A stretch of 64,000 nucleotides of DNA from a virus. A program made the position numbers and the translations under genes. Positions 25,737 through 64,000 of this stretch are shown here, piece after piece. Below the pieces are notes generated by a model. The model was not told the DNA's origin, did no database searches, and saw nothing but the letters and a program-made list of their open reading frames with translations. How positions within the stretch are numbered: the stretch's first letter is position 1; each line of letters starts with the position of its first letter. The stretch is from IMG/VR virus record IMGVR_UViG_3300042292_000421, positions 19,187 through 83,186 of that record. The stretch is one strand, 5' to 3'.

Positions 25737-26621
25737 ATGAATATTTATCAACCGTACACGTACCTAATTAAATTCCTCCCAACAAATCAAATCTATTATG
25801 GGGTTCGTTATGCTAAAAATTGTCACCCGTCTGATTTATTTGTTACTTATTTTACTTCATCAAATGAGATATGTAACTTATTACAAACATACGGTGTTGA
25901 AAACTTTAAATGTTATATAAGAAAAACATTTAAAACATCAGAACAAGCAAGATTGTGGGAAAGTAAAGTTTTAAAACGTATAAACGCTGCTCAACATCCA
26001 AAATTCATTAACAAATGCAATGGAAGTGCGCCATCGTCTGAAAAAGAAATACGTGATATTATTTTAAAAACATTTATATTAAAATATGGTGTAGACAATC
26101 CGTCAAAACACCCAGAGACTATTCAAAAAATAATCAATTATTGGAATAATTTATCAGAAACCGATAAAAATAAAATTAATAACAAACGAAGTAGCACCTG
26201 TTTAACACGATATAACACATCTAATGTAATGAAAATACCTAGTGTTAAAGAAAAAGCAAAACAAACAAATATTGAAAAATATGGTGTTGTCTATGCAGGT
26301 ATGCAGACTGTAACTTGTCCATGGTGTAATAAAACTGGAGGTAAAACAGGTTTTGATGTTTTTCATTTTAATTATTGCAAGGATAATCCAAATAGAATAG
26401 TACGAATTCAAAAAATCTATACATGTAATTATTGCAACTTTCAAAGTAAAAACAAATCAAATATGGATAGGTACCACTTTGAAAGTTGCAAATCTTCACC
26501 AACATACAAACAAAAACCTGTTATAAATTATATATGCCCACATTGCAATTTTTTAGGCACTGGTAAAAATAATATGACAAGATATCATTTTGATAATTGT
26601 AAAAGCAGAAAGGGGACCTAG
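25737..26621 (+). CDS. GIY-YIG homing endonuclease-like protein with zinc fingers
   Basis: A 294-residue protein. The N-terminal ~90 residues fit a GIY-YIG nuclease (TYLIKFLPTNQIYYGVRY, then a conserved ARLWESKVLKR helix carrying the catalytic Glu). The middle holds helical DNA-binding repeats (LKYGVDNPSKHPETIQK, YNTSNVMKIPSVKEK). The C-terminal third carries three C-x2-C...H-x4-C fingers. It points toward pmoC exon 2 and ends inside the palindrome just past the pmoC stop. That makes it a candidate mobility partner of the pmoC intron, although it lies outside it. The leader forms a GTAGTT/AACTAC hairpin. Confidence 0.72.
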   Translation: MNIYQPYTYLIKFLPTNQIYYGVRYAKNCHPSDLFVTYFTSSNEICNLLQTYGVENFKCYIRKTFKTSEQARLWESKVLKRINAAQHPKFINKCNGSAPSSEKEIRDIILKTFILKYGVDNPSKHPETIQKIINYWNNLSETDKNKINNKRSSTCLTRYNTSNVMKIPSVKEKAKQTNIEKYGVVYAGMQTVTCPWCNKTGGKTGFDVFHFNYCKDNPNRIVRIQKIYTCNYCNFQSKNKSNMDRYHFESCKSSPTYKQKPVINYICPHCNFLGTGKNNMTRYHFDNCKSRKGT

Positions 26622-26638: not shown

Positions 26639-27649
26639 TTAAGCTAAATCGCTTTTCAACAATTTAGATATTGCTTGTACTTCGATATTTACTACACCTA
26701 ATACACCAAGTGCAGCCCATCCAAAAAATACAACATTATGTTCATATAAGGTCGTTACTCTTATACCGCTTGTTAAGCTGCTTATAGTTTCCTATAAGAT
26801 CGGACTATATCTTTATCCATTTCTGGATACTACCCATTTCCACTTACTTAAGTGTACTCCCTTTCGGGATAGTCTCTGAACCTTAAACTTATTACTAAGT
26901 TTCTTGGCTGCTGATTGTCCTTTCGGATGTCCCAGCAATTAAAGTAGTTTTCATTATATTATTACTAATATAAGGAGCCTGTATTATTTTGACCCGTAAT
27001 GTAAAGGGGCTACGAATAACTCCTCCATGAACCAGAAAGTATGTCCCCATTCGTTTAAGCCAACGTTTGGAAGAATCATGAAAGGTCCAATTACTGATAC
27101 TAAGTATTGTAATGGCAAACCTTTTTGGTAGGTAGGCAAGCGTGTTTTAGCATATAAGAATGCAGAAACGCCTGTGATGATGTAAATAGGATAACTTAGA
27201 TAAAACTCAATAACATGACTTGGTGTAAAGTCAGTGTCACGAACGATTGTTTGATGCCATGTACCATCTTGTTCTGTAAAGTATGAAGCACCGTAATAAA
27301 TTGCGATACCATACATTACTAACCAAATCCAGTGTGTAAAGTGACGACGTAATTCTTCGCGTGGTGTAATTGACATTACTTTGCGATCGCGTGATTTCCA
27401 AATATAACCCCATAATACAGAAGCAGTTAATACTTCAAGTACCATTTCAATATATAGGAAGTTCATCCAATATGTTTCAAACTCTGGTGCAAATGAGTCT
27501 AAACCAGCAGACCATCCATAAACACCTTCATACCAACGAACCCACCCGTAAAACACTATATATAGTGCTGCACCTGCGAGCATAGCTGGTTTGTTCAAAA
27601 GTGAAGCTTCTTTAGCTTCTGCTTTTACCGTTTCAATTGTAGCTGACAT
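26639..27649 (-). CDS. pmoC: Particulate methane monooxygenase subunit C, split by a group I intron
   Basis: Exon 1 is 27649-26992 and exon 2 is 26733-26639. Joined they encode 250 residues, the normal PmoC length. PmoC is an inner-membrane subunit of copper methane monooxygenase. Metal ligands of both sites are intact: D128, H132 and H145, and N199, H203 and H217. The sequence is close to gammaproteobacterial methanotroph PmoC (WVRWYEGVYGWSAGLDSF). Without splicing, translation ends at HYGSK and loses the last membrane helix; splicing restores HYGFVFFGWAALG. Start chosen at 27649, after AGGAGAATTTTT; an upstream frame start at 27667 lacks a ribosome site. pmoA and pmoB are absent, so the product would join the host complex. 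Confidence 0.93.
26734..26991 (-). ncRNA. Group I self-splicing intron in pmoC (258 nt)
   Basis: All four core elements are in order on the minus strand: P (AATTGCTGGGA, 26940-26930), Q (AATCAGCAGCC, 26916-26906), R (GTTCAGAGACTA, 26881-26870) and S (AAGATATAGTCC, 26813-26802). R and S form P7. The 5' exon ends in U (GGGU), pairing through U.G with the guide GGCUC; the first 3' exon bases UUGUAUU pair with guide AAUACAG (P10); the intron ends in G. Splicing at these points restores the conserved PmoC frame exactly. No open reading frame lies inside. The site is right after codon 219, next to the last copper ligand. Confidence 0.92.
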
Positions 27650-27804: not shown

Positions 27805-27978
27805 TTATCTTTCTTTATGATGTTCTAAAGGAAGATGATGTCCTGGATGTTTGTAGTGTCGCTCGTAGTAGTGATCAAAGTTACCATCACGTAAATACTC
27901 ACGATGTACAGGCTGTTCGACACAGCCTGTAGTTAAATATGCCGCTAAAAATATACTAGCGACGAGTAATAATTTCAT
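27805..27978 (-). CDS. Small lipoprotein
   Basis: A 57-residue protein overlapping the end of clpP by 23 bases. It starts [15 protein letters not shown] and has the lipobox LTTGC, so it should be lipidated at the cysteine and exported. The mature part is short, His/Tyr-rich ([19 protein letters not shown]) and could bind metal. A start four codons earlier is possible. Perhaps an o-spanin-like or surface protein, but nothing in the sequence proves that. Confidence 0.55.
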
Positions 27979-28543
27979 CAATAAGTCCATATTCCAAAGC
28001 CTCTGTAGCGGACATAAAGCAATCGCGCTCCATGTCGGCAGCAAACTGTTCAAACGTTTTGCCTTTACTGTTGTGATCAACGTAAATCTGTGTTAGAGAT
28101 TTTTTCATCTTTAAGATTTCTTCAACTTGAATTAACATGTCAGTGGCTTGACCACGTGCGCCTCCGCTGGGCTGGTGGATCATATGTCTTGCATTTGGTA
28201 GCATTTTACGTTTACCTGGAGCACCTGCTGTTGCTAACAATGAACCCATACTGCATGCTTGACCCATTACTATAGTTGCAACATCTGGTTTAATAAATTG
28301 CATAGTATCATAAATTGCAAGTCCTGCTGTTACAACGCCGCCTGGGCTGTTAATAAAGAAACTAATATCTTCGTTGCCTTGACTTTCTAAAAAAAGCAAC
28401 TGAGCAACAATAATACTTGCAGAATGCTCGTTAACATCTGAATCAAGCATAAGAATCCGATCTTTGAGCAATCTACTATAAATGTCATATGAACGTTCAC
28501 CTTTTGCTTCTGACTCTACAACCATTGGGATTAAAGCTGGCAT
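27956..28543 (-). CDS. clpP: ATP-dependent Clp protease proteolytic subunit
   Basis: A 195-residue ClpP. The catalytic triad is visible: S98 (GQACSMGS), H123 ([11 protein letters not shown]) and D174 (ERDCFMS). The handle region and the C-terminal YGLIDEI are normal, and the length is that of bacterial ClpP without a long propeptide. ClpP forms a tetradecamer that degrades substrates delivered by ClpX or ClpA. The phage also encodes ClpS and a tmRNA in this window, so substrate choice for proteolysis may be redirected. Preceded by a TTGACA/TATAAT promoter and GGAGATAC. Confidence 0.93.
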
Positions 28544-43826: not shown

Positions 43827-44435
43827 ATGAAAATACAAGAAATTATAAACGAGGCTCACAATCGTGGTGATATGAAGTCGGTGCTAACTGCAAGAGGATA
43901 TAAGTTGTTAGGAACTGGATATTATGCAACTGTTTGGCAAGCACCAAATGGAACAATTTTAAAAGTGTTTTCTGCAAGTGAAGAACAAGATTATCATGAT
44001 AAAACTTGGTTAGCACCTAATTATAAACAGTATCCTGACGATCTAAAAGATTTTTTAATGTTCTATCATTATGTTAAGCAACATCCGAGTCCGTATCTTC
44101 CAAAATTTGGAAAACTTAAACGTGTAACAGTTGATAATCGTGAATATGTTATTGTAACAACTGAACCATTATCAGCAACTAGTACTAATCCAAAAACTGA
44201 AGATGCGTTTAGGTCTATAATAGTTAATGGCGGAGCTACTACATGGGAAGGGATAATTGAGGATAATCCAAGAGATGTTGACATATTAAATAAGTATGGT
44301 CCAAGGACATTTATGCCAGTTGCATTATTAGCCGCACATCTTAGTAGTATAAGTCCAACTTGGGATTTCTCAGATCATTTATCTAGAAATATAATGTTTC
44401 GTGGTGATATTCCAATAATTAATGATCCATGGTAA
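43827..44435 (+). CDS. Protein-kinase-like fold with capsid-targeting-like N-terminus
   Basis: A 202-residue protein starting MKIQEIINEA, very like the T4 internal-protein leader. The rest shows kinase-fold landmarks: a glycine loop (LGTGYYATVW, residues ~27-36), ILKVF with the ATP-binding Lys, a hinge-like VIVTTEPL, the catalytic loop WDFSDHLSRNIM (Asp and Asn in D-x4-N) and the metal Asp in INDPW. The form is close to small phage kinases and aminoglycoside-kinase-like folds. Inference: a packaged, injected kinase. Terminator follows at 44449. Confidence 0.65.
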   Translation: MKIQEIINEAHNRGDMKSVLTARGYKLLGTGYYATVWQAPNGTILKVFSASEEQDYHDKTWLAPNYKQYPDDLKDFLMFYHYVKQHPSPYLPKFGKLKRVTVDNREYVIVTTEPLSATSTNPKTEDAFRSIIVNGGATTWEGIIEDNPRDVDILNKYGPRTFMPVALLAAHLSSISPTWDFSDHLSRNIMFRGDIPIINDPW

Positions 44436-44448
44436 AGAGTCAATAAAA

Positions 44449-44468
44449 AAGCTGCCCTAGGGCAGCTT
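44449..44468. terminator. Bidirectional terminator (kinase gene / tmRNA)
   Basis: AAGCTGCCCT / AGGGCAGCTT perfect palindrome; a run of six T on the minus strand makes it a strong terminator for tmRNA and it also ends the + strand kinase-like gene. Confidence 0.85.
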
Positions 44469-44469
44469 A

Positions 44470-44860
44470 GTTGTATTTTGGTTAATAAGGCATACATGCC
44501 CCAGAGCGGTAGTTTCTTAAGCTACCATGTCAGCTGCTTCCAAAGAGAAGTCAACTGTCATATACTCGAATTTAGATGCTTTTGCGTCTATAAGTTTTGC
44601 GCTGTTTAGGACAGTCACCTCACCTGTTGCCGTCTCCATTATCTCACCAAGTCGAATCCAATTCATCCCCATTATAAAACACACTATCACTTCCCATTTG
44701 AGGGGCAGGAAGTCTACGGCTGTTGCCCCACTCCGATACCTCTAATGTGTTTTATGGTGGAGATGTGGGGTTTCGAACCCCAGTGTTTGATGCCGTCACT
44801 TTGAAGGAATTACAACAATAATAAACACACTAAAATATTTAATGTGCTTATTATTGTTAA
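44470..44860 (-). ncRNA. ssrA: tmRNA, circularly permuted (two-piece)
   Basis: The acceptor piece comes first (T arm with GGGTTCGAAACCC, then CATCTCC and ACCA at 44765-44755). It is followed by an intervening hairpin (TAAAACACA.../TGTGTTTTA, removed on maturation) and the coding piece starting GGGGATGAATTGGATTCGAC at 44670. GGGGATG pairs with CATCTCC. The best tag frame (44600-44517) starts GCAAAACTT, encodes 27 residues and ends ...EAADMVA before TAA. That is long and unlike the usual ALAA end, but still hydrophobic-small at its terminus. tmRNA rescues stalled ribosomes and tags products for ClpXP. Permuted tmRNAs are typical of alphaproteobacteria and some other groups. Confidence 0.88.
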
Positions 44861-44869
44861 CTTGTGCAT

Positions 44870-53862: not shown

Positions 53863-55020
53863 TTATTGCCCTTGTTGTACTTGAATTGGTGCGCATCCTC
53901 CTACTGTAGCACAATTAAAGTTTATTGAGTAATACTGTTGAGTAGCACCACTCTGTTGTAGACTCAAGTCTACTGGTTGTCCTGATAAGGTAATATCAGT
54001 CATATGATTTGCTGCACCTTGTTGTAATATATCAACATGTTTATTACCACCAGATAATTCAATATTAGCATAATAATTTCCACTACCCTTTTGTTGTAAA
54101 ATTAAACTGTTGTTATTATCAGTTATATTTATAAAAGCACCTTTACTAAACCCGGCAGTATATGTATCTTGATCTATACTAAGCAAATTAGAATTGCCAT
54201 TTACTGTTAAGTCAATAAAGTTTACTTGTAAGTTATTGGCTGCAGTTTGATTAATAGTAGTAGTGTTAGACGAGCCATTACTGCTGTAATTTACATAATT
54301 GTTGTTAGTACCTTTTTGATCAATTGTAATCTTGTTATTGTTTCCTAACTGATCTATATATACTTGATTGTCAGTAGTTGATCTAGATGTAAAAGCCGTT
54401 ACTTTTGCAGTATTAGCAGGAGCGGCATTAAATGAAGATCCACTGCCACCGCAGCAATATACACTTGGAAACGTAGTCCATGGTAACGTACTTCCTAAGT
54501 CAATGCTAGTAGTAGGATCATTTTGATCGTACAAGAATGTTATTTCTGCAATTTGCATAGAGTTAGCAGCACCTGCGTCTTTAACAATTGGAAACGTTAT
54601 ATTATAATACACGTATGCTTCTGTATTGTTAATAGGGTATACTGGACTAACTGCAAGTCTATTATTAGGTAATGCAATAAGTTGAGAAGTTATTAACGTC
54701 CAACCTCCTGATGTATCATTACTTCCAAATAAACTAAAACTAGCAGGATCTCGTTCTGGAGAATCATTTGCTGTAGTAAATTGTACTTGACTAATAACTT
54801 TACCTTGTGACAGTTTAAGCATAACACCTGCACTAAGTTTATCAAAGTTAAGATACTTAGTTCCGGGATTACCGTCAAACGCATTACTAAAGAACTCACC
54901 ACCTGGACTATTCATACTTGATGGAATATATCCTAACATTAATGGTCTAAGTGGTACATAGTTAGGAACTGCATCTACATTTGAATACCATAACAACAAT
55001 ATGAAAAATAAAATTCTCAT
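53863..55020 (-). CDS. Secreted curlin-repeat protein with discoidin-like domain
   Basis: A 385-residue protein. Signal peptide (MRILFFILLLWYSNVDA). Residues ~30-180 look like a discoidin/F5-8-type beta-sandwich (GGEFFSNAFDGNPGTKYLNF, LIALPNN). From ~215 to 380 there are curlin-like repeats with N-x-x-x-I-x-Q-x-G-x-x-N spacing (VYIDQLGNNNKITIDQKGTN). That suggests a sugar-binding head fused to an amyloid-forming stalk. Likely exported through the CsgG-like pore encoded nearby; overlaps the FecR gene by four bases. Confidence 0.72.
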   Translation of the reverse strand: MRILFFILLLWYSNVDAVPNYVPLRPLMLGYIPSSMNSPGGEFFSNAFDGNPGTKYLNFDKLSAGVMLKLSQGKVISQVQFTTANDSPERDPASFSLFGSNDTSGGWTLITSQLIALPNNRLAVSPVYPINNTEAYVYYNITFPIVKDAGAANSMQIAEITFLYDQNDPTTSIDLGSTLPWTTFPSVYCCGGSGSSFNAAPANTAKVTAFTSRSTTDNQVYIDQLGNNNKITIDQKGTNNNYVNYSSNGSSNTTTINQTAANNLQVNFIDLTVNGNSNLLSIDQDTYTAGFSKGAFINITDNNNSLILQQKGSGNYYANIELSGGNKHVDILQQGAANHMTDITLSGQPVDLSLQQSGATQQYYSINFNCATVGGCAPIQVQQGQ

Positions 55021-56102
55021 CGTCTTAACACTCCGGTAGTTTGTGTAATACTTATTGTATTACCGCCACTGCTGTCGCCTATCATTGTAGATGCAGTAGT
55101 ATCATTTTGAATAATAGATATAGCAGTATTAGAAGTATACCCTTGTGTTTTAATTTCAGCATAGTGTTCATCTGGGGTTATACGATATGCAGTACCTTTA
55201 CCTTTTTGTGTACCGTCTGCATTAGGTTGTTCCCACATTACACATACATGCGATGTCGGGTCGCAAGGTGCAATAGATTGTATAGTTTCTGCAATCTGTT
55301 CTATTCTAGCAGCAATAGTTTCTTGAGTTTTAGCTACTTGATTTGCTAATCGTCTAGTTGCTTCTTTTTCTAAATCTTCTTGTTCTTCATCTTTCTTTGT
55401 TCTAGCTGCTTGTTTAATTGCGTTAACAATTTCTTTTGGCGCAGAAATGATTAAGTTATTATTGATTTTAGATTCTACCAAACTAATAACTTCCGGAGCA
55501 GTTGGCATTGCAGTTCTACTACTAACATAAGTTGCATGAAACGCTTGATCTAAAGTAACTTCCCCTGCATCATTTGTAACTACAATTTTACCTACTTTAC
55601 AAATATTCTCTTGTAGTTCATATTGCTTAACATCTTTCTCATCTTTGCAACTTGGAAGTAGTACAATAAGAGATTGGCCAGTTTCATCTACTGTCATAGT
55701 AAAGTCAGTACCTCGTACTGCAATTGTAGCAGTGGGAGTTTGAATACCTACTTGCTGTGGATTAGCTTTTGCTATTTGCCCACTTGCATATCTAACAGTA
55801 CCTAATCCAACTTTTAATGCAAGTTTACCTGCATCTGATTGTTTTGGATCGTATACAAAGTCATCTATTACTAATCTACTATTCTCTGTAATTTTAACTT
55901 TTGTTTCATCTTTAAATAGAATGTTACTAACACACCCGCCGGTAATGTACGCATCCATACTTTCTATAGATGCGCCTTTATCACCTGCAAGTTTTTCTTT
56001 GTTACGTTCAATGCTGCATGCAGTGCCTTTAGCGTCTGAAACTGCACCAATTCCTGCATAAGCATTATTAACAACTAATAATAAAAAAACTAAGAACCAC
56101 AT
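55017..56102 (-). CDS. Secreted FecR-domain protein with curlin-like C-terminus
   Basis: A 361-residue protein with a signal peptide (MWFLVFLLLVVNNAYA). Residues ~40-170 form a FecR domain (ITGGCVSNILFKDETKVKI, RYASGQIAKANPQQVGIQTP, ATIAVRGTDFTM), usually a periplasmic ligand- or matrix-binding fold. A helical coil follows (~230-285). The last ~45 residues contain curlin-like spacing (NTAISIIQNDTTAS, NTISITQTTG). FecR domains are often found with CHASE2 cyclases; one is encoded 4 kb away. Role inferred: link between fibre and sensor. Confidence 0.75.
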   Translation of the reverse strand: MWFLVFLLLVVNNAYAGIGAVSDAKGTACSIERNKEKLAGDKGASIESMDAYITGGCVSNILFKDETKVKITENSRLVIDDFVYDPKQSDAGKLALKVGLGTVRYASGQIAKANPQQVGIQTPTATIAVRGTDFTMTVDETGQSLIVLLPSCKDEKDVKQYELQENICKVGKIVVTNDAGEVTLDQAFHATYVSSRTAMPTAPEVISLVESKINNNLIISAPKEIVNAIKQAARTKKDEEQEDLEKEATRRLANQVAKTQETIAARIEQIAETIQSIAPCDPTSHVCVMWEQPNADGTQKGKGTAYRITPDEHYAEIKTQGYTSNTAISIIQNDTTASTMIGDSSGGNTISITQTTGVLRR

Positions 56103-56103
56103 A

Positions 56104-56871
56104 TTACCTCGAAACGGCTGTATTTGAATTTACAATACTGCTTGAATTAGTTGACCTTACAGTAATTGTATTATGATCTCCAATTGTACTAATATCTATC
56201 ATAGAATCGTTAGTACCTTGCTGCTGTGTTACAACAGAGTTGTAACTCCCAGTAAAATCTTGTACTAGATGATGCCCGATACCGCCATCGTCTTGTTCGT
56301 TAATGAAACTGTTAAACCCGCCACTTACTGTTGTATCTACTACACCGTTAGTGCTATTTAATCGTGTTGTAACTTCATTGTTACTGCCATTAATATCAAT
56401 TGTACTATGTATGCTACCTTTAGTTAAACTTTGTATAACATAGTTTAAATCACCAGTAATTGTTTCAGTAACAACATTAGCAATTACTGGAGTACCAAGT
56501 CCAATGTTAAGTAACGTTTGATTTTGATTACCTTTAATGATACTAGAATATATATTATTTGCTCCGCTAATATTATATTGTGCCCAGTTAGTATCTCCAG
56601 TATGCGACAATGTTACTTGGTTAGAATTACCCGTAATAGTCGCATAATTTGATGAGCTTGCAGCAGCTGGTACAAAAGCTGTAATAGTGTTACTGGAACT
56701 ATATAACAAAGGATTGTTAAGAGTTGTACCACCAACGTTATTAGCTCCGCCAATCTGATCAATAACGATTGTATTTGCATTTCCGACTTGTTCGATGTAG
56801 ACATTGTTTACTCCTGTACTTGCTGCAAACACTGGACTACTTATTAGTAGTAGTATTAGAAGTTGTTTCAT
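56104..56871 (-). CDS. Curlin (CsgA/CsgB-like) repeat protein
   Basis: A 255-residue secreted protein with signal peptide MKQLLILLLISSPVFA. It contains many curlin repeats with the core N-x-x-x-I-x-Q-x-G-x-x-N, the best being NNVYIEQVGNANTIVIDQIG. More degenerate copies (NYATITGNSNQVTLSHTGD) fill the rest. Curlin repeats stack into amyloid fibres. It is longer than E. coli CsgA (151) and the repeats are less regular. Its start overlaps the end of the CsgG gene by 35 bases. Confidence 0.85.
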   Translation of the reverse strand: MKQLLILLLISSPVFAASTGVNNVYIEQVGNANTIVIDQIGGANNVGGTTLNNPLLYSSSNTITAFVPAAASSSNYATITGNSNQVTLSHTGDTNWAQYNISGANNIYSSIIKGNQNQTLLNIGLGTPVIANVVTETITGDLNYVIQSLTKGSIHSTIDINGSNNEVTTRLNSTNGVVDTTVSGGFNSFINEQDDGGIGHHLVQDFTGSYNSVVTQQQGTNDSMIDISTIGDHNTITVRSTNSSSIVNSNTAVSR

Positions 56872-57691
56872 TTGTTAGCTCCTTAGGTGCTTCTTTAAAA
56901 GCCCAATGGCCTCTTTTTGCACCTTCTTTTATAGTTTCGATCACCGCAGCTTGAATTGCTTTGTTAGTTGCTTTGTTTATGCTTTCGTTAATACTTCCGC
57001 CAATTTCAGTTTCTAATGCTTTAGTATCTGATGAGAACATTTTTAGTACACCAACTTTATCCATATAACTTAGTACAGTTTTAGTTACTACAACTGATGT
57101 TAGAATTTCACCAGATGTTACTGACACTATACGCACGCTCACTGTTACTGTATCGCTTTGATATTGTGTTTCGCCACCTATGCCAAATATCCTTACACCT
57201 GCTCCGCCTGTAATTGTATTTGAATCGTAGCCAACTACTGCGCCTTCTGCAATAATTCCGGCAAACGTCATAGCAGGTAAATTAGTTGCATCTTTGCCTT
57301 GAAACTGTTCGCGTGTTTGGCGAATCATTTGACGCTCTTTAACTAGGTTGTCTAAGCCAACTCGCTCTAGTACTACAAACCAACGACTATCGCCGACTTC
57401 TTTTAATGACTTGATTAAATAGTTTTCAGCACCTTGTGTAATTGCAGAACTTAAACTAGCAATGTTTGGCACTGATTTGCGTTGTCCAGTTTTATCCGTA
57501 AAACCGTACACTGCAATTGGAATAGGGCCACTTTGTGGCGGAGCTAAGTAATTTTCTTCTTTTTTCAAATAAGGAGTGTTGTCAACGATTGGATCGTCAA
57601 ACTGTTCACCTGTTATAAGTTTTTCAATTGAACTACTTGCTGCACATCCTTGTAGTAACATGATTCCTAATATTATGAGTAATTTTTTCAT
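56837..57691 (-). CDS. csgG: Curli secretion pore CsgG
   Basis: A 284-residue lipoprotein of the CsgG/HfaB family. LLQGC lipobox at residue ~16, then IPIAVYGFTDKTGQRK, RWFVVLERVGLDNLVKERQ, GAVVGYDSNTITGGAGVRIFG and TVTVSVRIVSVTSGEIL, the beta-barrel strand-forming region. CsgG forms a nonameric pore in the outer membrane that secretes curli subunits. Length close to E. coli CsgG (277). It has the ribosome site GAGATAAACA and follows csgF. Confidence 0.92.
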   Translation of the reverse strand: MKKLLIILGIMLLQGCAASSSIEKLITGEQFDDPIVDNTPYLKKEENYLAPPQSGPIPIAVYGFTDKTGQRKSVPNIASLSSAITQGAENYLIKSLKEVGDSRWFVVLERVGLDNLVKERQMIRQTREQFQGKDATNLPAMTFAGIIAEGAVVGYDSNTITGGAGVRIFGIGGETQYQSDTVTVSVRIVSVTSGEILTSVVVTKTVLSYMDKVGVLKMFSSDTKALETEIGGSINESINKATNKAIQAAVIETIKEGAKRGHWAFKEAPKELTNETTSNTTTNK

Positions 57692-57699
57692 TGTTTATC

Positions 57700-58176
57700 T
57701 CAAAAATAGAATGCGCCAGCTGGCACCTTCATTGTTGTTGTTTGACTTGGATTACTATTACTTGTAATATTGATAATAATTAGGCCATTGTCTGTACCTG
57801 CTCCTAATCCCCAAGTAACCGTGTTTCCGCCTAAGTCTGGAATATTTCCACAAGTTGCACCTGGGGTAGTACATGTAGACCCTTCGGCAAACATGCTATC
57901 AGTAAGTTGTTTTGCTAGTTGTGAATAGATCCTTGATTCTAAGTTTGCTAAGAATTTAGCCGCCGGCGTATTGGCTGCTGCTGATGCTGCTTTAGCTGCT
58001 AATGAATCTGCAAGTGATTTGTTTTTTTCAACGCCTTGCTGTTCTAACTGTTGGATAGTTAGAATGTGATTGCTATACCCAATTCCGCTAAATGCTGGAC
58101 TATTAAATGAGTGTTGGAGTTCAGCAGAAAATGCTGATGATGATACTAGTAGTAATAATACTAAGATTTTGTTCAC
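57700..58176 (-). CDS. csgF: Curli assembly factor CsgF
   Basis: A 158-residue secreted protein with signal peptide MNKILVLLLLVSSSAFSAE. The N-terminus of the mature part has LQHSFNSPAFSG, the CsgF segment that inserts into the CsgG channel, followed by a helical neck (ADSLAAKAASAAAN) and a beta-rich head. CsgF forms a second constriction in the CsgG pore and couples secretion to nucleation. First gene of the operon; ribosome site GGAGAGAGAAG. Confidence 0.9.
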   Translation of the reverse strand: MNKILVLLLLVSSSAFSAELQHSFNSPAFSGIGYSNHILTIQQLEQQGVEKNKSLADSLAAKAASAAANTPAAKFLANLESRIYSQLAKQLTDSMFAEGSTCTTPGATCGNIPDLGGNTVTWGLGAGTDNGLIIINITSNSNPSQTTTMKVPAGAFYF

Positions 58177-58248
58177 TTCTCTCTCCTTGATAAAGTTACT
58201 AACGTATTTACCTACAAAAAGAGTAAAAATAAAGCCAGCAGAAATAAT

Positions 58249-58256
58249 GATAAATA
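58249..58256 (+). promoter_or_regulatory. Late-type box GATAAATA
   Basis: GATAAATATAG, then AAGGATACAAA before the ATG at 58280; divergent from the csgF gene. Confidence 0.5.
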
Positions 58257-58279
58257 TAGAATATGATTAAGGATACAAA

Positions 58280-59071
58280 ATGAGAATTTCTGAATTACTT
58301 GAAAATGATAGACAATTAGGACTTCCGTTTCAAGATGAACCTACAGATTTACAACCAAGAGTAAAACAAAAACGTGTTAAAAAAGACTACGGTCAGACAC
58401 CTGAAAGACCAGAATTACGATTTAGTTTAGAAGATCATCCAGAATTAAAAGCTGCAGCTCAAGCTGTTAAAGCTGGAAAGATGTCTAGAGCAGAATATAC
58501 AGCATTAGTAAAAAAATATAAACCAGTAAGACCGTATGATTATGTTCCTACACCTGCAAGTGAAAAAGATATGAATCGCGGGTTAGATGCTGATAAACGT
58601 CATAAGATTAATTCACATATTGCAGACGGTGATGTAGTGCAATTACGATTAGACATCCCTGCGTATAATCATAAAAATGTTTGGGTTCCAACTATTCACA
58701 ATAAGTCCGGAACTCCTATTTCTCATAGAGGAGCAGCAGTCATTAATAATGTAACCATTAAGTTACCGCAAAAAGGTTCAATGAACATTGCAACAGGCGA
58801 AACTACTAAAGTTCCAATTGCTACTCTAAAAGGTTTTTGGGAAGAAGTATCGCCTGAAGATGCAAAGACAGAAGCAATGGCTGCGTTACATGATAAGAAT
58901 TGGGCTCAGGTAGGTATGGATCCTAAACGACATGCATTCTTCTATGATAGAAAAACTGAAAGACCTATTATTGGTGGATCACGTGCTGTACAAGTAGGAC
59001 CGTTAGTGTTAATTAAAGATCCTATCTATGACGATGATGGTGAATATATTTACGAACGAAATAAAAGATAA
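58280..59071 (+). CDS. Putative packaged protein with LPD-type C-terminal domain
   Basis: A 263-residue protein starting MRISELLEND, the same leader type as the genes at 43038-47972. Residues ~20-90 are basic and disordered-looking. The C-terminal ~60 residues (GMDPKRHAFFYDRKTERPI, SRAVQVGPLVLIKDP) match the large-polyvalent-protein-associated domain that occurs in phage and plasmid proteins thought to be injected into hosts. This supports the packaged-protein idea. Late box and ribosome site are both present. Confidence 0.65.
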   Translation: MRISELLENDRQLGLPFQDEPTDLQPRVKQKRVKKDYGQTPERPELRFSLEDHPELKAAAQAVKAGKMSRAEYTALVKKYKPVRPYDYVPTPASEKDMNRGLDADKRHKINSHIADGDVVQLRLDIPAYNHKNVWVPTIHNKSGTPISHRGAAVINNVTIKLPQKGSMNIATGETTKVPIATLKGFWEEVSPEDAKTEAMAALHDKNWAQVGMDPKRHAFFYDRKTERPIIGGSRAVQVGPLVLIKDPIYDDDGEYIYERNKR

Positions 59072-59074
59072 ATA
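59067..59074 (+). promoter_or_regulatory. Late-type box GATAAATA before structured leader
   Basis: GATAAATAAC overlapping the end of the 58280 gene; the following structured leader would start about ten bases downstream. Confidence 0.45.
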
Positions 59075-59082
59075 ACTTTAAC

Positions 59083-59183
59083 AACTTAGGACCGTCACAT
59101 TTATGTGCCTAAGGCGTCAAGGTTGCCCTACCTGACAGTTTGAGATTCGCTACCTCTTACAACTGTGAACAGGGCTTTTTTTT
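59083..59183 (+). promoter_or_regulatory. Structured leader with terminator-like hairpin (riboswitch candidate)
   Basis: First hairpin CTTAGG/CCTAAG with an inner CACAT/ATGTG, then a long stem GCCCT...CAGTT / AACTG...AGGGC followed by eight T. The second is an intrinsic-terminator shape, placed directly before the ribosome site (GGAG) of the ParB-like gene. Leader plus terminator is the layout of an attenuator or riboswitch. I recognise no known aptamer. Confidence 0.5.
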
Positions 59184-59193
59184 GGAGATTGCT

Positions 59194-59544
59194 ATGCGAA
59201 TATTTGAAGTAACTGCCCACATGTCAACTGATCCGGACAACTATGGTACTAGTATTAATAGTTGGAATGCAAAAGAACGACATAAAGTTAAAGAAATTCC
59301 GATGTCACAATTAATAACATTTGAACATCCTAACAAAATGAAAGATCCTACAAGTAAGCAAAATATGATGAAAATTGCAAAAGCATATCATATGGGAGAA
59401 AAGATACCACCTATCATGGTAAAAAAACATGAAGATAAGTATATGGTATTAGATGGGCATCACAGATACTTTGCTGCAAGACTTGCAGGAATAAGAGCTA
59501 TCCCTGCAATTGTTATACCTGATGATAAAATAACTATTGATTAA
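59194..59544 (+). CDS. ParB/Srx-like domain protein with leader-type N-terminus
   Basis: A 116-residue protein starting MRIFEVTAH. The rest has a ParB/sulfiredoxin-like fold: IPPIMVKKHEDKYMVLDGHHRYFAARLAGI holds the conserved D-G-x-H-R motif, which binds nucleotides (CTP in ParB) or supports nuclease activity. The start at 59194 follows GGAGATTGCT. It overlaps the stop of the convergent HNH gene by four bases. May be another packaged protein, though its N-terminus is a poorer match. Confidence 0.65.
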   Translation: MRIFEVTAHMSTDPDNYGTSINSWNAKERHKVKEIPMSQLITFEHPNKMKDPTSKQNMMKIAKAYHMGEKIPPIMVKKHEDKYMVLDGHHRYFAARLAGIRAIPAIVIPDDKITID

Positions 59545-60317
59545 TATTTAATACCTAATGTTTTTCTACCTGGTGTTAAATAGTCTTTTTCAGTAATTGT
59601 TTTATGTGTATGACAACATTTACATAGTGTTTGTAAATTTTCTTTTTTATTATTTCTAGCATTACCGTCTATATGGTCTACATCAAGTTGTGCAATCATA
59701 GTGATAGTAGATGTACATACATAACCTAACCGGTTATCTATATTTTCACAATAAGTTTTTCTATATTTTCTATATGGATGTTTTGAATTTGCGTAATCAA
59801 CATAATTACTATATCCGTTATCTAATGCAAGTTGATGTTTTAATGCATCATTATAACCTTTATAATTACTATACCCGTTATCTAATGCAAGTTGTAAGTT
59901 TAAATGATCTCTATATGCTCTATATGTTTTAAAACCATTTTCTTTTGCATTTTGTAGATTTAAATGATCTGCGTATGCTTTATATGATGAAAACCCATTT
60001 TCTTTTGCATTTTGTAGATTTAACTGAGTTGTGTATGATTTATGTGATGAAAACCCGTTTTCTTTTGCAATACGATCATTGTTTTCTTTTATTGAATTAC
60101 AACCTGCATTTTGAGCACACCGCACTGCATATTTCACACCATTCTTCTGTTCAAGATGTTTATGTTTGCAAGGTGTACACATTGATTGAAAACTATAAGT
60201 TCCGTCTTTTTTCTTTTTACCAATAGTGCGCTCTTTAACATTGCATACTGGGCAAATTGGACGTGGACCGATGTTTAATTTAGCTAATTTATTTACTCTG
60301 ATGTTTAATTTTGTCAT
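59541..60317 (-). CDS. HNH endonuclease with five ~20-residue repeats
   Basis: A 258-residue protein. Zinc pairs CPVCN and CTPCKHKH near the start, then five tandem repeats of ~20 residues with the pattern A-x-E/D-N-G-F/Y-x-x-Y-x-x-Y-x-x-x-L (residues ~80-180), then an HNH site: QLDVDHIDGNARNNKKENLQ and LCKCCHTHKT. The repeats probably read DNA as a helical array. Repeat number is likely to vary between relatives. Homing-type mobile gene. Confidence 0.72.
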   Translation of the reverse strand: MTKLNIRVNKLAKLNIGPRPICPVCNVKERTIGKKKKDGTYSFQSMCTPCKHKHLEQKNGVKYAVRCAQNAGCNSIKENNDRIAKENGFSSHKSYTTQLNLQNAKENGFSSYKAYADHLNLQNAKENGFKTYRAYRDHLNLQLALDNGYSNYKGYNDALKHQLALDNGYSNYVDYANSKHPYRKYRKTYCENIDNRLGYVCTSTITMIAQLDVDHIDGNARNNKKENLQTLCKCCHTHKTITEKDYLTPGRKTLGIKY

Positions 60318-60353
60318 ATTATGTTTTGTGTGATTTAAGGTTAATGTTATAAT

Positions 60354-60863
60354 TTAAGATCGACTTTTGTTTAATCTAGGTAATGTGCCTGTATGTGTTT
60401 TAATAAAATCTAAATACTGTTTTTCTAAATCTTTGTGTATAGTTGCATTAGTAGTGTAAGGGTTACCCCAAATTGTAAAGGGTGATGATAGGTAGTTACA
60501 TTTTTTAGCCCAAAACGAGTAGCTGTTAAGTTTTTTATGCATCGATTCAAACAACTGCTCTCTAATAGATTCATCAGTACCATCTCCGTTAATGTATCGT
60601 CCTATTCGACATTTGCTACCGGACAACGGTTGTTGGTCCCACCAAAATTCAACTTTTTGAATACCTAATGGATTACCAGTTTCCCCAACTTTTATAATTT
60701 CATTATCTTCTACAATAAAGTATACCCATGATCGATGAGTATCATACATAACTTGATAATTTATATTTTCATAATACCAATGATTATGATTATCTAATTT
60801 TAGTGTTATATCGCAAACTTTTTGAAAACCGTCAATTTTATAATTGTTAATGTTTAATGGCAT
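60354..60863 (-). CDS. GIY-YIG-like endonuclease (169 aa)
   Basis: A 169-residue protein with SWVYFIVEDNEIIKVGETGN, a GIY-YIG variant near residue 45, and SKCRIGRYING, then EQLFESMHKKLNS with a likely catalytic Glu. No zinc finger. It has its own TTGACA/TACAAT promoter, unlike the other endonucleases, which use late-type boxes. Could be a homing enzyme or a diverged host-attack nuclease. Confidence 0.55.
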   Translation of the reverse strand: MPLNINNYKIDGFQKVCDITLKLDNHNHWYYENINYQVMYDTHRSWVYFIVEDNEIIKVGETGNPLGIQKVEFWWDQQPLSGSKCRIGRYINGDGTDESIREQLFESMHKKLNSYSFWAKKCNYLSSPFTIWGNPYTTNATIHKDLEKQYLDFIKTHTGTLPRLNKSRS

Positions 60864-60921
60864 AGTATGTTGTAGTAAGTTACGTTTAAGATTATTCTAT
60901 ACATTTATAAAGTATGTGTAT

Positions 60922-60950
60922 ATTGTATAGGTTTTATGTCATCCTGTCAA
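60922..60950 (-). promoter_or_regulatory. Promoter of the GIY-YIG-like gene
   Basis: TTGACA, 17-base spacer, TACAAT, directly after the RimK-like gene stop. Confidence 0.75.
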
Positions 60951-61832
60951 TTACTCTGATAATCTTTTAACAATGTAATTAACTATGTCGCTCGCTATGT
61001 CAGTATTGCAATAATGGTCAAACCCGCTAAATCCTGGATTTGAATTTGCTTCGCAAACTCTAAAACCTCTTTTATCAAATAACAGATCAATACCGGCAAT
61101 TTCTAATCCTAATGCTTTTGCAGTAGCTAGTGATATGTCTTCTATTTCTTTAGATACAGGGAATAACTCGCCAGTGCCACCTATTGTAATATTTGCTCGA
61201 AAATCGTCAGGCGGTGCAGTGCGCTTCATTGCACCTAACACTTTATCACCAACTACAAATACTCGTAAATCTTCACCAGGACGATCATTAATGTATTCTT
61301 GCACTAATAATTTTTTATCATTATCTAAGTTTTTAAGAAATTCAATTAGTTTTTTATATTCGTCTTCAGAATGGCATAAGTACACACCTTCACCAAAACT
61401 ACCAACTAACACTTTAATTACGCAAGGGAATCCTATCTGTGTTGCGATTAAGTTATTAGTAATTGGAAAGTGTACTAGCATTGTAGTAGGAACAGCTATG
61501 TTAGCATGTGACAGTATTTGACTAGTGTGGAATTTGTTTTGTACGATATTAATGCTATTGCTAGAATTAACGCATGGAATACTGTGTAATTCAAAATATC
61601 TAATTACAGCTAATTCGACAGACGTAATACCAGCACCCAATCGTACTAATACTAAATCCGGCATGGGGAAATCTTCCCCATCGTATCTAATTGGTTGATT
61701 TATAACGATATCAAAGTTGTTAAATTGACGGACTGACACTTCAATGCCGTTAGCTATAAAATTAGCCAACAGTTTAGAAGTTTCATAGTCAATAGTAGTT
61801 TGTTTTGTGAGAATTATAACTGAATGTTTCAT
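60951..61832 (-). CDS. RimK-like ATP-grasp ligase
   Basis: A 293-residue ATP-grasp enzyme. KHSVIILTKQTTIDYETSKL is the N-terminal Rossmann-like part; GFPCVIKVLVGSFGEGVYL is the ATP loop, LLVQEYINDRPGEDLRVFVVG the central motif and FRVCEANSNPGFSGF the metal-binding C-terminal motif (E-x-N-x-N-P-G). RimK adds glutamates to ribosomal protein S6; relatives modify other amino-acid tails. The phage enzyme could modify the ribosome or a phage protein. The start lies beside a 30-base palindrome with late boxes, so it may be leaderless. Confidence 0.82.
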   Translation of the reverse strand: MKHSVIILTKQTTIDYETSKLLANFIANGIEVSVRQFNNFDIVINQPIRYDGEDFPMPDLVLVRLGAGITSVELAVIRYFELHSIPCVNSSNSINIVQNKFHTSQILSHANIAVPTTMLVHFPITNNLIATQIGFPCVIKVLVGSFGEGVYLCHSEDEYKKLIEFLKNLDNDKKLLVQEYINDRPGEDLRVFVVGDKVLGAMKRTAPPDDFRANITIGGTGELFPVSKEIEDISLATAKALGLEIAGIDLLFDKRGFRVCEANSNPGFSGFDHYCNTDIASDIVNYIVKRLSE

Positions 61833-61860
61833 AGTGTATTTATCTAGATAAATACACTAT
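61831..61860. promoter_or_regulatory. Palindromic late-type element with two GATAAATA boxes
   Basis: A perfect 30-base palindrome containing GATAAATA on both strands. The minus copy ends about five bases before the RimK-like start (leaderless). The + copy points toward the end of the bilin reductase gene. It could also act as an operator or a small hairpin. Confidence 0.5.
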
Positions 61861-61867
61861 TTTACAT

Positions 61868-62545
61868 TTAAATTTCAGGAAATAAGCATTGATGAATAAA
61901 GATGTTAACTTCTTCTTCGTTTAATCCTAATGCAGCCATAACTTTAGGAGTGTGAGGATTTAACTTTTGATTTTGTGCGTAGTAGTTTTGTTCTTCTACA
62001 GTGCTTTTAACAGTGTTATTTGTGTTTGCAACGCATGATAAGTAGTGTTTACTAGTGCATGTTACTGTATTAATAATTTGTGCTATTTCTTCGCTAGATT
62101 GAACGTTGCTTGCAGCTATCATAGACGGGGAAAAAATACGAACAGCCCAATCAGGTAATGTTCGTAATTTATTCCATTGTAACTCATCAACGTTGGTCGC
62201 AAACCATTTAATCATTGGATGATTAATATCGCCTGCAGGGCTATAATCATGGAAACAACCTGTAATTTTATTACGACCTGCTACTATATCAAATCCAAAT
62301 ATTGGTGCAGGATTATTAGTATGTGGAAATATACAGCAGTGTAACATCCATAATCCACGAGTATCACGCTCGTCAATAATATCTATATGCGCTCTGCGAT
62401 ATAACTTGCTTTCCCATACTCTATGTATCCAACCTTTATGAGAAAATTGATCGTGACTTGATTCAACAACAATTGTTCCAGTTTCGTTAAATTGATCTTC
62501 AAGCATGAGTTGAAGATCAATTAATTGATTCCAAAGTACTGTCAT
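61868..62545 (-). CDS. Ferredoxin-dependent bilin reductase (PcyA/PcyX-like)
   Basis: A 225-residue FDBR. WMLHCCIFPHTNNPAPIFGF and DIVAGRNKITGCFHDYSPAG are hallmarks of the PcyA/PcyX group. H69 and D86 match PcyA H88 and D105; a Glu equivalent to PcyA E76 does not align clearly. PcyA makes phycocyanobilin; marine phage PcyX makes phycoerythrobilin, and the missing Glu would fit the latter. It reduces biliverdin with electrons from reduced ferredoxin. It overlaps the heme-oxygenase gene by four bases. In a non-photosynthetic host the bilin might serve a phytochrome or a heme/iron role. Confidence 0.9.
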   Translation of the reverse strand: MTVLWNQLIDLQLMLEDQFNETGTIVVESSHDQFSHKGWIHRVWESKLYRRAHIDIIDERDTRGLWMLHCCIFPHTNNPAPIFGFDIVAGRNKITGCFHDYSPAGDINHPMIKWFATNVDELQWNKLRTLPDWAVRIFSPSMIAASNVQSSEEIAQIINTVTCTSKHYLSCVANTNNTVKSTVEEQNYYAQNQKLNPHTPKVMAALGLNEEEVNIFIHQCLFPEI

Positions 62546-63069
62546 GCTAACTCTTCAAATAACTGAGTGGCAAATTTAAAACAGACTAATGCCTCGTCTG
62601 CCAATGAATCGTCCAATTTAGCACGAATGGCAGTTTTAAGCGCATCGGCATTATCAAATTTATAACAGGATCCGGATCCTGGAATTCTTTTTGCAATCAT
62701 TTGACCACCGTATAGATCTCCCATGTGTCTAACATACATGTGTGCTAGTAGTTTATCTGGATTGTTAGAAATATTGTTAATATGTTCTTTATATAAAACT
62801 GTAGCAGTTGCAAGTGGTGGCACTTCTTGATCATCTGGCCATAATTCTTTAAAATCTTCAAGCAATTTTGCAGCACGTTGTATACCTGGTAAGTCATTTA
62901 ATAACCCTATTACTAGTGCATGACTTTCTAAAATTTCATATGCAGTATACTGATTATACAAGTAGATTGCATATTCTTCATTAGTAAGGTTACCAGAAAA
63001 GATTTTTTTAACAAACGGTTGTGTTTCAGCTAGTCTATGTGCTTCAGCGGTTAATTCTTTCAAACTCAT
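62542..63069 (-). CDS. ho1: Heme oxygenase
   Basis: A 175-residue heme oxygenase. The proximal heme ligand is H11 (LTAEAHRLAE); the distal helix motif is RHMGDLYGGQMIAKRIPGSG. It opens heme to biliverdin IX-alpha, CO and iron, the substrate of the adjacent bilin reductase. Shorter than host HemO (about 200-240 residues), typical for phage copies. Overlaps by four bases on both sides (clpS and bilin reductase). Confidence 0.93.
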   Translation of the reverse strand: MSLKELTAEAHRLAETQPFVKKIFSGNLTNEEYAIYLYNQYTAYEILESHALVIGLLNDLPGIQRAAKLLEDFKELWPDDQEVPPLATATVLYKEHINNISNNPDKLLAHMYVRHMGDLYGGQMIAKRIPGSGSCYKFDNADALKTAIRAKLDDSLADEALVCFKFATQLFEELA

Positions 63070-63374
63070 ACGTCTTCCTCCATTTTAATTTGTAGTGGGT
63101 AACCTGCAGCTCTTGCAAGTGATGTTGATTCTACTGCTTTAATTTCTGCAATTTCAAAATTGTACACTCCTGCAATAGCAGAACCAGTTTCGTGAATTTG
63201 CATAGTAATGTTACCTGCAGAATTTGGATCGTGTTTAAAAACATCCATTAGTAATGTTACTACAAAATCAACAGGGGTTACGTCATCGTTAATTAGAATA
63301 ACTTTCCAACGTTTTGGTTCAGGCACGCGAACGCGCACTTTCTCATCTACTGCAATATCTGTGTTGTCTGACAT
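63066..63374 (-). CDS. clpS: ClpS adaptor
   Basis: A 102-residue ClpS. WKVILINDDVTPVDFVVTLLMDVF is the N-degron-binding signature (N-D-D-x-T), with MQIHETGSAIAGVY and the LARAAGYPLQIKMEE end. ClpS hands substrates with destabilising N-terminal residues to ClpA for degradation by ClpP. With the phage ClpP and the tmRNA this gives three ways to redirect host proteolysis. It overlaps the heme oxygenase gene by four bases. Confidence 0.92.
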   Translation of the reverse strand: MSDNTDIAVDEKVRVRVPEPKRWKVILINDDVTPVDFVVTLLMDVFKHDPNSAGNITMQIHETGSAIAGVYNFEIAEIKAVESTSLARAAGYPLQIKMEEDV

Positions 63375-63382
63375 GATAGTCC

Positions 63383-63832
63383 TTATTTAATTTGAATTTG
63401 ACGGGGTTGCAGCGCAGCTGGCATTAATCGTTCGATACCAATAGTAAGCATCCCATCTTCTACTTTAGCATCTTTAACTTCCATATACTCTGCAAGTGTA
63501 AAGGTTTGTTCAAAATCTCGTAATGCTAATCCACGATGTAAGAATTCTTTTCTTTCGTGTAGATCAGGATTATATTTTGTATTAGCACGTTTTTTACCTG
63601 TTACAACAAGTAAATCTTGATTAACTTCAACGTTAATATCGTGTTTAGTAAATCCAGCGACTGCTACTTCTATTTCGTAGTAAGTATCGTTGTATTTTAC
63701 AATGTTATGTGGTGGATAATTATTAGCCGCAGTTGCTGCTAATACGTTTGAAAATAGAGTATCAAACCCTATTAATGCTTTATTTAATACTGCTAACTCT
63801 GCAGTGCTTATTGTTAGTTTTGGTTGTGACAT
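63383..63832 (-). CDS. hsp20: Small heat-shock protein Hsp20
   Basis: A 149-residue Hsp20/IbpA-type chaperone. VKYNDTYYEIEVAVAGFTKHDINVEVNQDLLVVTGKK is the alpha-crystallin start and GLALRDFEQTFTLAEYMEVKDAKVEDGMLTIGIERLMP its end, with the C-terminal I-x-I motif (IQIK). It holds unfolded proteins. First gene of the hsp20-clpS-ho-FDBR operon, with AAGGAGAT as ribosome site. Such genes are common in T4-like cyanophages. Confidence 0.92.
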   Translation of the reverse strand: MSQPKLTISTAELAVLNKALIGFDTLFSNVLAATAANNYPPHNIVKYNDTYYEIEVAVAGFTKHDINVEVNQDLLVVTGKKRANTKYNPDLHERKEFLHRGLALRDFEQTFTLAEYMEVKDAKVEDGMLTIGIERLMPAALQPRQIQIK

Positions 63833-63892
63833 AAAAAATCTCCTTATTGTAAGCGAGGACTATTTAAACCCTTACGGCGTTTATTTGCGTAT

Positions 63893-63921
63893 ATAATAAC
63901 ATAGCTGTTAACAAATGTCAA
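63893..63921 (-). promoter_or_regulatory. Promoter of the hsp20-bilin operon
   Basis: TTGACA, 17-base spacer, TATTAT. The -35 lies in the loop of a perfect 11-base-pair hairpin (63899-63930) that also could terminate the gene beyond; terminator and promoter overlap. Confidence 0.7.
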
Positions 63922-63942
63922 CAGCTATGTTTAAATTTAGTG

Positions 63943-64000
63943 TTATGCTTTTGGTTCTGCTACTGTAGTTTCTTCAACAGTTTCTTCAACAGTTTCTTCA
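63943..64000 (-). CDS. C-terminal end of a gene that runs off the window
   Basis: The last 18 residues are readable (EETVEETVEETTVAEPKA), an acidic Glu/Thr/Val repeat tail ending at TAA. The gene continues beyond the window, so product unknown. Confidence 0.55.
   Translation of the reverse strand, partial: EETVEETVEETTVAEPKA

Follow-up and report, generated by a model that had tools for sequence, protein, structure and literature searches.

Linkage of a hemO-pcyX cassette to dnaK, hsp20 and clpS in large freshwater phages

Heme oxygenases (HO) convert heme to biliverdin, iron and CO, and ferredoxin-dependent bilin reductases (FDBRs) reduce biliverdin to a phycobilin with electrons from ferredoxin. 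The closest described system is the marine hemO-pcyX cassette, known from 5owg and from Pelagibacter phage Mosig EXVC030M, in which HO lies directly before a PcyX-type FDBR with overlapping gene ends, as in the locus analysed here. The Mosig and 5owg FDBRs belong to the same clade as the FDBR of this locus and likewise carry Asp55, His69 and Asp86, but the Mosig proteins are only 40-43% identical to ours and their cassette has no adjoining dnaK, hsp20 or clpS; neither ClpS nor Hsp70 was found in the whole Mosig genome. The freshwater methanotroph phage CB_2 also carries HO and an FDBR, arranged as vhemO-vpcyA with valaS, but its FDBR lacks the Asp55 present in our enzyme and makes phycocyanobilin, and it has an AlaS that is missing from our partial record; Clp and Hsp20 are unmentioned in that study (PMC11480375). 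Cassettes of hemO with pcyX or pcyA in non-cyanobacterial phages, including CB_2, have therefore already been published (PMC11480375), and the novelty that the original prediction attached to a non-cyanobacterial bilin cassette had to be given up. Cyanophage PcyA (P-SSM4, P-TIM40) and PebS (P-SSM2) share the FDBR fold and family, but they form a separate clade, PcyA has Glu in place of Asp55, and their genes do not stand beside clpS.

The remaining genes are known from other phages. The pmoC-phages of Chen et al. 2020 (PMC7674155) are large freshwater phages in which hsp20 is common, as in the phage analysed here, but the main text of that paper mentions no heme oxygenase, bilin reductase, ClpS or DnaK. 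DnaK is known from other large phages such as the Moraphages (PMC12619734), large aquatic phages with DnaK, DnaJ and Hsp20, which resemble our phage in having Hsp70 and Hsp20 but belong to another lineage with Bacteroidota hosts, and for which heme, bilin and ClpS genes are unmentioned. Pelagimyophages and the methylophage Melnitz have csgF/csgG, tmRNA and hsp20 in common with our phage, while the passages searched in their descriptions contain no bilin/ClpS/DnaK operon (PMC7029224, PMC9004378). In the literature searched, which left out preprints and most subscription papers, we found no dnaK-hsp20-clpS-hemO-pcyX operon, no paper with both a bilin reductase and ClpS, and nothing relevant linking heme oxygenase to DnaK or, in phages, to ClpS; that large freshwater phages almost always have hemO-pcyX linked to dnaK, hsp20 and clpS appears to be new. 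The purpose of phage heme-degrading and bilin genes in non-photosynthetic hosts has been called enigmatic (PMC11480375), and their conserved association with clpS, hsp20 and dnaK, apparently with translational coupling, offers a genomic hint of the process that they serve, as it is seen in some 50 phage clusters that have diverged from one another. We tentatively propose, with a probability of roughly 0.38, that chaperones, ClpS, HO and PcyX act jointly as a stress and heme-turnover/salvage operon of the virocell.

Layout of the operon

The window (the whole stretch of 64,000 nt that was analysed) makes up the right-hand part of an IMG/VR record of 83,186 bases, and both stop inside dnaK. Hsp20, ClpS, HO and FDBR genes were found on its minus strand where the original prediction had placed them, with Pfam scores far exceeding the cut-offs for all four. 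The features referred to below are as follows.

63943-64000, minus strand: 3' end of a dnaK gene of the phage, comprising its final 18 codons and the stop codon, with the remainder lying beyond the contig
63893-63931, minus strand: putative sigma-70 promoter, TTGACA-17-TATTAT (11/12 consensus matches)
63898-63931, minus strand: 15-bp hairpin/palindrome overlapping the putative promoter (fold z-score -4.86)
63383-63832, minus strand: hsp20, small heat-shock protein, 149 aa (PF00011, E 1.4e-15)
63066-63374, minus strand: clpS, Clp protease adaptor, 102 aa (PF02617, E 4e-26)
62542-63069, minus strand: heme oxygenase (HO), 175 aa (PF01126, E 2e-22)
61868-62545, minus strand: pcyX-type ferredoxin-dependent bilin reductase (FDBR), 225 aa (PF05996, Fe_bilin_red, E 3e-14)
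27956-28543, minus strand: clpP-type protease, elsewhere in the phage (PF00574, E 7e-76)
26642-27649, minus strand: pmoC in two exons (27649-26993, 26740-26642), outside the operon and a host indicator (AmoC PF04896, E 2e-111)

The genes had been described as overlapping, which is correct for the ClpS/HO and HO/FDBR junctions (each a 4-bp ATGA overlap) and incorrect for Hsp20/ClpS, where a gap of 8 bp with a Shine-Dalgarno-like AAGGA was found. Upstream of hsp20, comparison with contig L003, which is 99.88% identical to window positions 55871-64000 and extends beyond the window end, identified the final 58 bp as the 3' end of dnaK. In L003 this gene is complete (653 aa, HSP70 E 1e-257) and ends 110 bp upstream of hsp20; a full-length HSP70 with ATPase motifs is thus established on L003, the window holding the 3' end only, and the motifs are kept in the DnaKs of related loci. 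The operon is longer than four genes, with dnaK as a further member, and dnaK-hsp20-clpS-hemO-pcyX are presumably co-transcribed. The hairpin and the promoter-like site between dnaK and hsp20 are kept in the five nearest relatives (L003, L171, L175, L172 and L176), with a compensated hairpin arm change in L172, but this region as a whole has no more promoter-like matches than chance would give, and the site at 63893-63931 is only suggestive.

Recent capture of dnaK from a methanotroph host was considered and rejected, as the phage DnaKs form a clade of their own (with Methylococcales as the only outgroup), their identity being 64% to Methylococcales vs. mostly 71-82% among themselves. In a 372-kb relative (L350; G078:261300-265200), dnaK lies in two HSP70 pieces approximately 1.1 kb apart, and no group I intron was called at this split.

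Recurrence of the gene set among viral loci

Related loci were collected by scans of the viral collection seeded with the FDBR, ClpS and a ClpS profile (best 80 at most per scan), which gave 168 loci that are not independent, some contigs being present in more than one set. Among the matches listed, the order hsp20-clpS-hemO-FDBR was found in 155 of these 168 loci (the exceptions being mostly contig ends), and dnaK lies upstream in 151 of the 160 loci having both hsp20 and clpS. The grouping of bilin genes with proteostasis genes, as originally predicted, is therefore a recurrent one. The operon genes are under purifying selection (dN/dS approximately 0.1-0.2 against relative L005, at 68-90% protein identity), which together with the repeated order excludes chance as its origin. 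After clustering at 80% ClpS identity, the full set was present in 48 of 52 clusters among the matches listed, although ClpS identity across the clusters falls as low as 36%. Of 77 loci (again among the matches listed), 59 have a ClpS/HO overlap of precisely 4 bp, a predominance that we take as a sign of translational coupling, whereas in a few loci ClpS and HO are 273-286 nt apart.

Additional genes were observed between HO and FDBR in some relatives, namely a tryptophan-halogenase-like gene in L331 (4835-6328), a similar sequence in L339 (4814-6310), and an S-adenosylhomocysteine hydrolase gene in L272 (4844-6130); L029 holds a tryptophan-halogenase-like remnant.

In the best 80 marine loci, obtained with the Mosig FDBR as seed, FDBR was present in all and HO in 74, and no Hsp20, ClpS or DnaK was found within the flanks of these pelagiphage-type loci. 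As these loci have neither the chaperones nor ClpS nearby and the Mosig genome has no ClpS, the HO-PcyX pair does not need dnaK, hsp20 and clpS. This bears on a rival explanation, nearly as probable as salvage, in which hemO-pcyX hitchhikes in the well-expressed dnaK-hsp20-clpS slot of one large-phage lineage, is kept there by descent, and confers a separate bilin benefit. The operon could indeed be conserved because its carriers descend from a common ancestor in a single phage lineage, which counts against salvage, and the chaperone-free marine relatives, the genes interrupting HO/FDBR in L331, L339 and L272, and the widened ClpS-HO gap in a few loci all agree with hitchhiking. It is opposed by the persistence of the full set in nearly all ClpS clusters despite their divergence, and by the predominance of the coupled 4-bp ClpS/HO junction.

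Enzymes, predicted bilin and host

The enzyme identities of the operon are firm, and the window FDBR is an enzyme of the PcyX clade. The score of its Fe_bilin_red domain, 53.6 bits, exceeds the cut-off of 31, PcyX_EBK42635 is the solved structure closest to it (5owg, E 1e-56; PcyA E 2e-11), and the best fold matches of its AlphaFold model (pLDDT 90) are 5owg, in first place, and PcyA. In a maximum-likelihood tree, the PcyX clade (62 sequences, SH-aLRT/UFBoot 98.4/98) contains the window FDBR, 45 operon FDBRs, 14 marine FDBRs, 5owg and Mosig, and the window enzyme stands apart from cyanophage PcyA, PebS and the FDBRs of Methylococcales. This phylogeny had been set beforehand as the refuting test of the original prediction, and it joined the enzyme to PcyX instead of cyanophage PcyA/PebS. 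Two other assignments were tried and rejected: PcyA, because the enzyme has Asp where PcyA has Glu76 and falls outside the PcyA group, and PebS, because it has Asn at the aligned Asp206 position and is distant from PebS in the tree.

Asp55 of the window FDBR aligns with Asp55 of 5owg and Mosig, while His69 and Asp86 (the equivalents of PcyA His88/Asp105) are invariant in all non-redundant phage relatives. Phycocyanobilin production by the CB_2 enzyme has been tied to its lack of Asp55 (PMC11480375), and the presence of this residue here leads us to predict phycoerythrobilin as the product. The FDBRs of L172 (4827-5504) and L176 (4864-5541) carry D55N and F85C, differ at another eight or nine sites that are otherwise nearly invariant, and share approximately 60-63% identity with the window FDBR (ClpS and RimK 79-90%); this sister lineage may make a different bilin.

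The HO is short (175 aa) and of HO-1 type, with the proximal His11 and GDLxGGQ conserved and an all-helical HO fold in its predicted structure (pLDDT 95.5, TM 0.81-0.87 to solved heme oxygenases). Judged by sequence, the catalytic residues of both HO and FDBR are intact, and the related CB_2 heme oxygenase is active, converting heme to biliverdin (PMC11480375). No Fer2 ferredoxin was found in 29 related phage records; a phage-encoded ferredoxin driving HO and FDBR was accordingly rejected, and both enzymes need host donors. In ClpS, the N-degron pocket residues N29, D30 and H61 are invariant in 54 sequences, and at the position taken as the gatekeeper Met the window has Val, whereas 45 of the 54 have Met. 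Hsp20 has a C-terminal I-Q-I motif.

The pmoC gene noted in the original prediction was confirmed, and the best matches of its product are Methylococcales PmoC with 92-94% identity, which makes the proposed methanotroph host, more precisely a gammaproteobacterial one, likely; PmoC similarity is the kind of host evidence used by Chen et al. 2020 (PMC7674155). A cyanobacterial host, in which the operon would serve phycobilisomes as in cyanophages (the phages classically associated with HO, PcyA and PebS), is extremely improbable and was rejected on the basis of this PmoC identity, the position of the FDBR in the PcyX clade, and the lack of any Photo_RC/photosystem gene (psbA) in 23 related phage records; the virus was rightly called a non-cyanobacterial phage. 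A PcyX with Asp55 thus occurs in a phage that probably infects methanotrophs, and there a light-harvesting pigment cannot be the reason for it. Among the 42 other records with the operon, many of them fragments, pmoC was found in a single one, and a strict association of the operon with methanotroph hosts is therefore improbable.

A group I intron (RF00028, 26781-27001, minus strand, 87.8 bits) splits the window pmoC near its 3' end, and a homing-endonuclease-like gene at 25737-26621 adjoins it. A second pmoC phage (record G029, L049; L349:1026-1245, minus strand) has a group I intron elsewhere in the gene, near codon 42. Introns are unmentioned in the main text of Chen et al. 2020 (PMC7674155).

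Among 35 Methylococcales genomes, many of them incomplete MAGs, PHY domains were found in six, FDBRs in three and heme oxygenases in eight, and all of these were absent from the five genomes whose PmoC is most similar to that of the phage. As 27 of the 35 are without a PF01126 heme oxygenase, the phage would bring a pathway that most candidate hosts lack. The same survey bears on whether the bilin is a chromophore for a photoreceptor or another bilin-binding protein of host or phage. This fits the six PHY-bearing genomes and the ability of PcyA from phage CB_2 to supply a phytochrome (PMC11480375), but 29 of the 35 genomes, among them the five closest in PmoC, have no PHY, and in five of the six that do, a host HO already adjoins the PHY gene. 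Moreover, the predicted product would form non-switching adducts; phycoerythrobilin is not known to photoswitch in phytochromes. The photoreceptor reading is disfavoured and given very little probability, and with it the earlier suggestion that the bilin feeds a host phytochrome, in view of the phycoerythrobilin predicted from Asp55 and the scarcity of PHY. Iron recovery and heme removal, the two other roles suggested at the outset, were retained as candidates.

Proposed function and neighbouring genes

In the stress and heme-turnover/salvage operon that we favour, DnaK and Hsp20 would refold or hold proteins during the production burst, while phage ClpS would load N-degron or damaged host proteins, haemoproteins included, onto host ClpA with either host ClpP or the phage ClpP. 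The heme freed by this turnover would be opened by the phage HO to biliverdin, Fe2+ and CO, and PcyX, supplied by host ferredoxin, would convert biliverdin to phycoerythrobilin, pulling the reaction forward and clearing a reactive product. The gain would lie in recovered iron and less free-heme damage, and not in a light-harvesting pigment. A setting of stress and protein turnover is favoured by the tight linkage of ClpS and the chaperones, together with the occurrence of ClpP-family proteases in 24 of the 29 related records searched, which makes the phage ClpP a possible partner of ClpS. The substrates of ClpS and the heme/iron purpose are among the parts that we infer. In Mosig, an isolated pelagiphage, the HO-FDBR pair has ferrochelatase and several 2OG-Fe(II) oxygenases as neighbours; this context is one of iron and heme, contains no chaperones, and counts for the heme/iron reading.

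AlaS makes heme precursors, and its occurrence in 10 of 24 related records fits poorly with pure heme removal; a role in heme supply is as conceivable as one in removal. AlaS was rejected as an operon member, being absent from the window's own partial 83-kb record (G000) and without a match within the fetched flanks. It also enters a distinctly unlikely explanation, in which phage ClpS would direct host HemA (glutamyl-tRNA reductase, GluTR) to Clp proteolysis and HO/PcyX, with AlaS in some phages, would reset the heme pool and spare Glu-tRNA. A link between ClpS/Clp and GluTR is established in plant chloroplasts (literature), a Glu-tRNA-sparing role has been proposed for phage AlaS (PMC11480375), and the AlaS-bearing relatives fit; the partial window record without AlaS does not, and HemA as a substrate is conjecture for every phage ClpS.

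A stronger version of the salvage reading, in which the operon would be a unit of large freshwater phages for dismantling haemoproteins, the chaperones and a phage-tuned ClpS feeding haemoproteins such as cytochromes to Clp and the coupled HO-PcyX mining the heme iron, is unlikely; if true, it would make proteolytic recycling of heme a strategy of viruses at large. We consider it equally doubtful as the chromophore that phage chaperones, ClpS and bilin/CO blunt host defence without heme salvage. Heat-shock proteins of other large aquatic phages have been proposed as counter-defence (PMC12619734), but none of the genes linked to the operon is specific to defence, and two dedicated heme enzymes would be left unexplained.

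Downstream of the operon, a 30-nt palindrome, ATAGTGTATTTATCTAGATAAATACACTAT, lies at 61833-61867 between FDBR and a gene for a RimK-like ATP-grasp ligase (60951-61832, minus strand), which is 39% identical to cyanophage ribosomal-S6-modifying homologues and follows FDBR only in the nearest relatives of the window. Further downstream, as in most related loci, are genes for csgF, csgG and a curlin-repeat protein (53863-58176), curli-type phage genes being known from pelagimyophages and Melnitz (PMC7029224, PMC9004378). A phage tmRNA at 44426-44869 (minus strand) matches the beta and permuted Rfam models.
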